From a virus: DNA of 36,260 bases. The stretch is from IMG/VR virus record IMGVR_UViG_3300045738_002452, positions 1 to 36,260 of that record. One strand, given 5' to 3'. This document shows positions 15,520-17,268 of this stretch, piece after piece (position 1 is the first letter of the stretch; every line of letters begins with the position of its first letter). The notes under the pieces were generated by a model. The model worked only from the letters and a program-made list of their open reading frames with translations, searched no databases and was not told the DNA's origin. A program made the translations under genes and the position numbers.

Positions 15520-15542
15520 TTATTAAAGTGGCTTACTGATTT
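15520..15542 (-). promoter_or_regulatory. Conserved 23-bp late element, copy 2
   Basis: Same element as at 11750, with variable pair GC. It overlaps the end of the tail chaperone T frame: the stop codon TAA is part of the element. A terminator hairpin follows within 11 bases, so here it may regulate rather than start transcription. Confidence 0.5.
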
Positions 15543-15895
15543 GCGCTGGCTGCTAGATGCTCATTGATGGCATTGGCGTAGCCTGAGACTGCTATCCTAA
15601 AGTTAACAAAGTCATCTGGTGTGACGCTGATATCGACGCGGCGTAGCAGTATATCTATCGCTACCCAATCTATGCCCATGACCGTACCGCTATAGGGGTT
15701 GCGAGTCAGTGCTACATAATCAAACAGGGGCAGAATAGGGATAAACTCACGCCAGACCGTCATCACTTCAAACTCAAAATCTTCTTGCTTGGTGGCGACG
15801 CCAAACTCTGCAAAGGCGTCATCGGTGGCTTGTTGTTCCGCTAGGTGGGCATGATAGGCTTGCTCTTGCTCAGCCACATGCCGACCTAGCGCCAT
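15533..15895 (-). CDS. Tail assembly chaperone T part, made as -1 frameshift fusion with G
   Basis: A 120-residue frame that overlaps the end of the G-like gene (TAATG). 'FEFEVMTVWREFIPILPLFDYVALTRNPYSGTVMGIDWVAIDILLRR' resembles small proteins of lambda-type tails encoded right before the tape measure. The -1 frame after the slippery site A AAA AAC runs directly into this frame (codon CTA, then the ATG). The expected product is a fusion of 122 + 1 + 120 = 243 residues, like lambda gpGT. Separate translation from its own ATG is also possible. The T part is expected to recruit tail tube subunits to the tape measure. Confidence 0.82.
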   Translation of the reverse strand: MALGRHVAEQEQAYHAHLAEQQATDDAFAEFGVATKQEDFEFEVMTVWREFIPILPLFDYVALTRNPYSGTVMGIDWVAIDILLRRVDISVTPDDFVNFRIAVSGYANAINEHLAASANQ

Positions 15896-15904
15896 TAGTT
15901 TTTT
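15839..15904 (-). promoter_or_regulatory. Programmed -1 ribosomal frameshift signal (G to GT)
   Basis: The heptamer A AAA AAC (15898-15904) is in the correct zero-frame phase, with TAA immediately after it. Six bases downstream a three-part hairpin begins: CGCTAGGT/ACCTAGCG (15884-15891 with 15839-15846), one C-C mismatch, GGCATG/CATGCC (15877-15882 with 15848-15853), and GGCT/AGCC (15872-15875 with 15857-15860). Spacing and structure fit known -1 signals of phage tail chaperones. Confidence 0.85.
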
Positions 15905-16263
15905 TGATGCAGCTTGTTACCGCCGACACTGTCAAAGTAGCCTTCGATCAATGCTTGACGAAATTCAGAGATAGCGAGGAGCTGACGTTTACTGTCTTCA
16001 TCAAATTCTAAATCTTCGCCGTCTTCACCTTTGATTTGTCCTTTATGCCAGCCGGCTAAGACTTTATCAAAAAATTCGTTTTCGATTTCTTCTTCATGCT
16101 CAGCTTGCGTCGCTTGCACGCGCTCTAATAGATGCACGCGCTCATCATGGGGCAAGCGGTTAAAGTCCACTTTAACAGTCGTTTTCTTATAGCTTCCGTT
16201 ATAAGGCATCTTGATTGTGATTGTCCAAGGATAGGTATCAGCGACATCGCTCAGTTTAAACAT
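15895..16263 (-). CDS. Tail assembly chaperone G
   Basis: A 122-residue protein. An N-terminal beta-rich part ('YPWTITIKMPYNGSYKKTTVKVDFNRLPHDERVHLLERVQ') leads into an acidic helical C-terminus ('EEEIENEFFDKVLAGWHKGQIKGEDGEDLEFDEDSKRQLLAISEFRQALIEGYFDSV'). This is the usual look of phage tail assembly chaperones encoded between tail tube and tape measure. It binds the tape measure before tube polymerisation and is not in the finished virion, by analogy with lambda gpG. The stop codon lies directly after the slippery heptamer described at 15898-15904. Confidence 0.82.
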   Translation of the reverse strand: MFKLSDVADTYPWTITIKMPYNGSYKKTTVKVDFNRLPHDERVHLLERVQATQAEHEEEIENEFFDKVLAGWHKGQIKGEDGEDLEFDEDSKRQLLAISEFRQALIEGYFDSVGGNKLHQKN

Positions 16264-16341: not shown

Positions 16342-17268
16342 CTAACTAAAAGTAATGGTATAAGGTGGATTGCTTGCTGATTGCATGACACTACACTCAA
16401 TCTCATAGCCCAGCGCACCATCCATATCAGTGGCTTTGGGAATATCAATAGCCACCGCAGGATAGTTAAGCTTAATTTTGTGACCAGCGACTGTGCCATG
16501 CTCAATCACTAATGGCATCTCGTCACCGTCCCAGGCTTTTTGGTATAGGTTAATCTCACTCAGCTGCGGCGCACCAACGGCGATCGTGACCATCGGCTTA
16601 CGATCGCTAATCATAGAGGATTGATGATTGACCATATCAAGTGAGGTCACCTCATTACCTGTGGTATGGCTAAAGGTCTTCATGGCATAGTCTTTAGCGC
16701 CCAGCTTAAACACAGGCGTATTGGCAAAATTCACCGCTTTTGGTGTCTGATATCCCTCAATCAAAGTGACCAGATCGGCAGGCTTGGCAATCGGGATGGT
16801 GCCGCCCACCATAGAGATCTCAAACTCCCAGTAACCCAGCTCGCCACTGTTAGCTGACAGTTTGATTTCAGCTTGAGCGCTTTTACCCATGTGAAACTGA
16901 CCATCAAGCAGAAAGGCAACCGTGCCAAAGCTGGTGTCTGTGGTTTCAGGCGTATAGGTCACGGTATCGGCCGCGACGGTCTCAGAGTGACCTGCCATCA
17001 AAAACAGATCACGATACGCGGGCGCAGTGCCAGCCGTGCCGCTACTGGCAAACGCGACTTTGCCTGTGATTTTTACTTTATCCGTGGTGCGGTGCTTTTT
17101 GTTTGCGCCCCAGCGCTCACCGTCCTTTTCTTGCTCGACAGTGTCGCCCTCAAAGCTGATATCGACGTCCTTGGTTTCGACGGGTTTTAGCTGATTATGC
17201 GGTAAATCACCGATACCCCACAGCAGCAGCTTTTTCTTAAATTTACGACTTAATGCAACGTTTGGCAT
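16342..17268 (-). CDS. Major tail tube protein
   Basis: A 308-residue protein. 'PNVALSRKFKKKLLLWGIGDLPHNQLKPVETKDVDISFEGDTVEQEKDGERWG' and 'VKITGKVAFASSGTAGTAPAYRDLFLMAGHSETV' are typical of siphophage tail tube subunits. 'MVGGTIPIAKPADLVTLIEGYQTPKAVNFAN' continues the pattern. The protein polymerises into the tail tube. No tail sheath gene is found next to it, which argues for a non-contractile tail. A GAGCAA ribosome site precedes the ATG. An AGCCGT/ACGGCT hairpin with no T-run lies in the 78-bp gap after it. Confidence 0.85.
   Translation of the reverse strand: MPNVALSRKFKKKLLLWGIGDLPHNQLKPVETKDVDISFEGDTVEQEKDGERWGANKKHRTTDKVKITGKVAFASSGTAGTAPAYRDLFLMAGHSETVAADTVTYTPETTDTSFGTVAFLLDGQFHMGKSAQAEIKLSANSGELGYWEFEISMVGGTIPIAKPADLVTLIEGYQTPKAVNFANTPVFKLGAKDYAMKTFSHTTGNEVTSLDMVNHQSSMISDRKPMVTIAVGAPQLSEINLYQKAWDGDEMPLVIEHGTVAGHKIKLNYPAVAIDIPKATDMDGALGYEIECSVMQSASNPPYTITFS

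Follow-up and report, generated by a model that had tools for sequence, protein, structure and literature searches.

The locus studied here raises the question of how two overlapping open reading frames, G and T, are expressed, given that they sit between the major tail protein gene and the tape measure gene of a phage and that the second is in the -1 frame relative to the first. The sequence is IMG/VR record IMGVR_UViG_3300045738_002452, positions 1-36,260, and we refer to this whole stretch of 36,260 nucleotides as the window. Its transposase shares 61% identity with the transposase of Pasteurella phage AFS-2018a and 45% with that of Mu, its capsid protein has its nearest matches among phage records in DMS3/JBD30-type Pseudomonas phages (57%), and its lambda-like tail genes encode tape measure, tail assembly and J-like proteins. 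Judged from these genes, the window phage is a Mu-like transposable phage with the long, flexible tail of a siphovirus. We propose, with a probability of roughly 0.93, that G and T are joined through programmed -1 ribosomal frameshifting at a signal of the type known from lambda G/GT.

Genes G and T in the tail operon

The genes concerned are the following.

16342..17268, minus strand: probable major tail (tube) protein, 308 aa, assigned by position and by weak homology (tblastn) to annotated tail tube proteins of phages RcWaterboi and vB_MaeS-yong1
15895..16263, minus strand: gene G, tail assembly (tape measure) chaperone, 122 aa, ATG to TAA; phrog_569 (E = 1.6e-10) and structure model matches to tape measure chaperones
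15533..15916, minus strand: T reading frame, -1 relative to G, T domain of gpGT; open from 15916 to 15536, stop at 15535-15533; phrog_680 (E = 1.3e-05); dN/dS 0.09 against the close relative L002
12231..15458, minus strand: tape measure protein, 1075 aa; Tape_meas_lam_C (E = 3.4e-19) and phrog_2854 (E = 1.8e-87)

For the AlphaFold model of G (pLDDT 81), matches to tape measure chaperones came from Enterobacter phage Ec_L1 (E = 1.8e-3) and Serratia phage Scapp (E = 4.2e-3), with a TM of about 0.6; in Scapp they are to proteins of 129 aa and 236 aa, which look like a G/GT pair. The matches of the T model are weak (best E 0.1) and include tape measure chaperones of Proteus phage Stubb and Escherichia phage W011D, and the similarity of T to DUF1799 is below the cut-off. 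Neither G nor T gave a meaningful match when their sequences were searched against the PDB, and the same holds for a fold search with G. The phrog_569 family aligns continuously to residues 1-223 of the GT fusion, which suggests that it contains fused G-T proteins. Although phrog_569 and phrog_680 both bear the description tail length tape measure protein, what they match are the chaperones G and T, and this label was probably inherited from the adjacent gene.

The tail operon also contains a strong terminator-like hairpin in the interval that separates T from the tape measure gene (15515-15477, minus strand, an 18-bp stem followed by TTTTTG), which would require antitermination or reduce expression of the tape measure gene. 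The equivalent stretches of two relatives (L084 and L006) have no obvious counterpart of it.

Elements of the candidate signal

In frame, the 3' end of G reads CTG CAT CAA AAA AAC TAA, and the elements at the junction are as follows.

15898..15904, minus strand: slippery heptamer A_AAA_AAC, in phase with G (X_XXY_YYZ); kept in L002 and in 12 further tabulated relatives
15895..15897, minus strand: TAA stop codon of G, immediately 3' of the heptamer; its final A also begins the T ATG (TAATG)
15893..15895, minus strand: possible restart ATG of T, overlapping the G stop; at this place solely in the window and L002
15839..15891, minus strand: predicted hairpin of 53 nt, following the heptamer after a 6-nt spacer (TAATGG); -32.9 kcal/mol, z -5.5
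15891-15884 with 15846-15839, minus strand: basal helix of the hairpin, 8 bp, then a C.C mismatch
15882-15877 with 15853-15848, minus strand: middle helix, 6 bp, from the fold
15875-15872 with 15860-15857, minus strand: apical part, 4 bp plus a 2-bp tip, from the fold

The first-pass annotation of this DNA had read the heptamer as in phase and the G stop as directly next to it, and both readings hold, at 15904-15898 and 15897-15895. The 8+6+4 bp hairpin that it placed six bases after the heptamer is likewise present, with the extra 2-bp tip, although its apical part is mostly lost in L002. A -1 slip would yield a product of 122 + Leu + 120 = 243 residues (G-Leu-T), in agreement with the fusion length given earlier and with the -1 frame entering T exactly.

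To what extent could such an arrangement be fortuitous? In 20 genes of the window phage, comprising 8454 codon pairs, in-phase X_XXY_YYZ heptamers number 23; hence P is ~0.003 for a heptamer in the codon pair that immediately precedes a stop and ~0.016 for one anywhere in the short two-frame overlap. When the hairpin region was recoded synonymously 3000 times, no variant was as stable as the native sequence (mean -14.2 kcal/mol, sd 3.1), and among 8114 coding windows there is one other place that folds better. This place is a very stable hairpin (9320-9235, minus strand, -37.7 kcal/mol, z -3.6) within the tail assembly protein gene (9578-8868), and no heptamer stands directly before it. An Rfam search matched no known RNA family.

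In favor of chance juxtaposition, with the heptamer a random run of A and T not expressed from the signal, the string AAAAAAC is not enriched across the window (9 observed against 8.45 expected). What counts is its position, not the frequency of the string. Heptamer and hairpin are jointly rare, purifying selection acts on T (dN/dS 0.09), whose homologues occupy the same place and frame, and the signal is conserved in relatives, as described below. We rejected chance juxtaposition on account of this conservation, and its probability is close to nil.

Conservation in a close relative

In scans of viral contigs with G, with T and with the GT alignment, the only close contig, and the sole close relative found, was IMG/VR contig 3300029264_000403 (L002), whose G and T are 80% and 89% identical to those of the window. 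Between the window and L002, synonymous divergence reaches 1.0 for G (dN/dS 0.12) and 0.6 for T (dN/dS 0.09). Both G and T thus look like real proteins, and the signal has had time to decay. The stretch CAAAAAAACTAATG is identical in L002 and the window, with the heptamer and the stop kept. Conservation of the basal 14 pairs of the hairpin is 96%; one pair has changed at both bases from G-C to A-U, another has gone from A-U to G-U, and one is lost. Where the window has the C.C mismatch, L002 has an A-U pair, and 4 of the 6 apical pairs are lost. Loss of heptamer or hairpin in close relatives had been named beforehand as an observation that would speak against the signal, and L002 retains the heptamer and the basal stem. 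Hairpin covariation between the window and L002 shows no significance against shuffles, two sequences being too weak for proof. The TAATG overlap is also present in L002, as is the run of seven A (15905-15899) inside which the heptamer sits.

The divergence of the window from its relatives is uneven over 20278-12231. When compared with L002/L004 and L143, the capsid protein is 100%, the probable tail tube protein 98.7% and the tail completion protein 96% identical, whereas the tail-length module is more diverged (T 89%, G 80%, tape measure 75%, the last of these in another contig from the same sample), as if this module were exchanged or evolved faster. Scanning viral contigs for the tape measure protein yielded one weak match and a second fragment, which comes from the same sample.

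Junctions in distant relatives

More distant phages and prophages were reached via the capsid protein, a first genome scan with the GT alignment having returned nothing, and profiles built from the window-family sequences then revealed G/T pairs in viral contigs, phage records and genomes. The clearer matches make up a table of 23 junctions, some rows of which are close kin (L006, L010 and L034; L158 and L159), so that the rows should not be counted as independent events. The table leaves out four weaker T matches, namely L166, with no G in the fetched stretch, and L053, L062 and L167, with heptamers 108, 21 and 27 nt before the G stop, respectively. No further relative turned up among 140 searched genomes from the family to which Pasteurella atlantica belongs.

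All 23 tabulated junctions combine a T in the -1 frame with an in-phase heptamer in G, including some where G is only 16-28% identical. The heptamer is A_AAA_AAC in 14 cases, G_GGA_AAC in 8 and the lambda-type G_GGA_AAG in 1, and it ends 0 nt before the G stop in 16 junctions, 3 nt in 5, 9 nt in 1 and 36 nt in 1. The first-pass remark that tails of this type usually employ other heptamers is true of lambda (G_GGA_AAG), but among the relatives found A_AAA_AAC is the commonest form (14/23). When gpGT is compared with its counterpart in the Pasteurella atlantica prophage L084, the alignment runs through the junction with no gap there. Junctions with A_AAA_AAC mostly have a strong hairpin (z -1.7 to -6.8), whereas most of those with G_GGA_AAC are without one (z between +1.1 and -1.4 in 6/8); this contrast might reflect compensation, or kinship or G+C content, with both of which the trend is confounded.

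In three phage records the GT fusion is probably missing: Vibrio phage vB-Vv-ZX4290 (L160, 1639-2351), Rhodobacter phage RC1 (L147, 2115-2788) and Thiobacimonas phage vB_ThpS-P1 (L148, 4194-4846) have G and T annotated as separate hypothetical proteins, despite an in-phase heptamer directly before the G stop.

The same junctions bear on the only serious rival to frameshifting, in which stop-restart translational coupling at TAATG would yield T as a protein of its own, the heptamer and hairpin being incidental or only tuning the restart. The overlap in the window and L002 agrees with this, but these two are alone among the 23 in having an ATG at the T start. Most relatives are without any start near the beginning of T, which makes frameshifting the natural source of GT, and all of them keep the in-phase heptamer. 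At the usual distance upstream of the T ATG (15895-15893) there is no Shine-Dalgarno-like stretch. Restart thus leaves the conserved heptamer unexplained, including in relatives where the T start is absent, and as the sole mechanism we rejected it for this reason and regard it as very unlikely. The ATG that T has in the window and L002 suggests that some free T could be made, and a mixture of GT from frameshifting and some free T could exist in the window's lineage.

The run of seven A, shared by the window and L002, would also allow RNA polymerase to slip and to produce mRNAs one A longer or two shorter, in which G and T are fused without ribosomal frameshifting. Seven A is a short run for productive transcriptional slippage in bacteria, the homologous junctions with G_GGA_AAC or G_GGA_AAG have no such run, and a hairpin downstream in the coding frame would not be expected. 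We consider polymerase slippage extremely improbable and rejected it, as it is unlikely on seven A and cannot cover the GGGAAAC members.

Ribosomal frameshifting is thus favored by the in-phase heptamer with its adjacent stop, 6-nt spacer and hairpin; by the rarity of heptamer and hairpin; by the retention of the signal in L002 despite a synonymous divergence of 0.6-1.0; and by L084, which combines the lambda heptamer and a stem with the lack of a T start. The pattern in 23 of 23 junctions, the gpGT alignments through the junction, the matches of the G model, the adjacent tape measure gene and the layout in phage Loki (see below) argue in the same direction.

Proposed mechanism

Under the frameshift model, ribosomes translating G would arrive at AAA AAC with the stop codon next and the hairpin ahead. 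Most of them would terminate at TAA and release gpG, while a minority would slip back one base on A_AAA_AAC, both tRNAs re-pairing with AAA AAA. The shifted ribosomes would then read CTA ATG and onward, unwinding the hairpin and completing the 243-residue gpGT. If lambda is a guide, the tape measure protein would be bound by many copies of gpG and few of gpGT, and the T domain would recruit tail tube subunits. We infer the occurrence of slippage, its frequency, a tandem rather than a single slip and the roles of the proteins.

Counting against the frameshift reading, A_AAA_AAC is much less shift-prone in E. coli than A_AAA_AAG (PMC5009743), and the T ATG of the window offers a second possible route to T. 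The tRNA-Asn of E. coli promotes double slips only (PMC5009743), hence the main fusion peptide should be Lys-Asn-Leu-Met. The spanning peptide proposed in the first-pass annotation, Lys-Lys-Leu-Met, is accordingly not expected to be the main one; it would arise from the P-site tRNA slipping alone and should be minor. In lambda the ratio of G to GT is about 30:1 (PMC5009743), and a modest heptamer with a strong hairpin would fit the low level of GT that lambda needs.

A broader view, which we offer tentatively and regard as rather unlikely, is that heptamer, adjacent stop and hairpin form one unit in this tail chaperone family. Slow termination would hold the ribosome on XXXAAAC and set the G:GT ratio, members with A_AAA_AAC would rely on a strong hairpin, several members with G_GGA_AAC would do without it, and TAATG would add a third product, free T, in the window's lineage.

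Comparison with known systems

The G/GT frameshift mechanism is already known from many tailed phages, and the layout of AAAAAAC, stop and hairpin is known from Loki. To these the window adds a well-supported case of G/GT frameshifting from a transposable, Mu-like phage whose tail is of lambda type. The recurrent layout across the tail chaperone family, with A_AAA_AAC or G_GGA_AAC directly before the stop, is a modest family-wide regularity. The family is labelled tape measure protein in a phage protein library and appears as two separate genes in several phage records, so that the practical use lies in correct annotation of the GT fusion.

In lambda, the -1 frameshift between G and GT takes place on G_GGA_AAG (Levin 1993; Xu 2004, 2013, 2014, as reviewed in PMC5009743). 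The window resembles lambda in that a heptamer close to the 3' end of G would direct the -1 shift, in the position of G and T just before the tape measure gene, and in a T domain that a minority of G would carry. It differs in having A_AAA_AAC, a stop directly after the heptamer and an overlapping T ATG, and searches with the window's proteins gave no significant match to the lambda G or T family.

A closer likeness in layout is seen in Acinetobacter phage vB_AbaS_Loki, in which an AAAAAAC adjoins the stop between gp12 and gp13 and a -1 fusion is annotated (PMC5313236). We re-read this junction as TCA AAA AAC TAA with a hairpin 8 nt later. Similar to the window, AAAAAAC stands directly before the TAA of the first chaperone, a hairpin follows and the tape measure gene lies downstream. 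However, the proteins are not recognisably related (no profile match), the head genes are of another type, and an extra gene is found between the chaperones and the tape measure gene. By description, the window is also similar to the Caulobacter phage phiCbK group, where AAAAAAC is the G/T slippery site and Colossus has GGGAAAC (PMC3556154), and to the haloarchaeal virus HCTV-2, which has AAAAAAC, with GGGAAAC in HCTV-1 (PMC5009743); the phiCbK group and HCTV-2 belong to other phage groups, and their sites are predicted.

Homologous proteins are found in L084, a Mu-like prophage of Pasteurella atlantica, which shares with the window G (42%), T (45%), a tail protein (72%), the -1 phase and a downstream hairpin, but has G_GGA_AAG, a stop 9 nt later, a strong predicted stem about 18 nt after the heptamer and a T without a start codon. 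Distant homologues of G and T occur in Rhodobacter phage RC1, Thiobacimonas phage vB_ThpS-P1 and Vibrio phage vB-Vv-ZX4290, where T is in the -1 frame and the heptamer adjoins the G stop. The first two differ from the window in carrying G_GGA_AAC and no notable hairpin (z about 0 to 1), whereas ZX4290 has A_AAA_AAC together with a hairpin.
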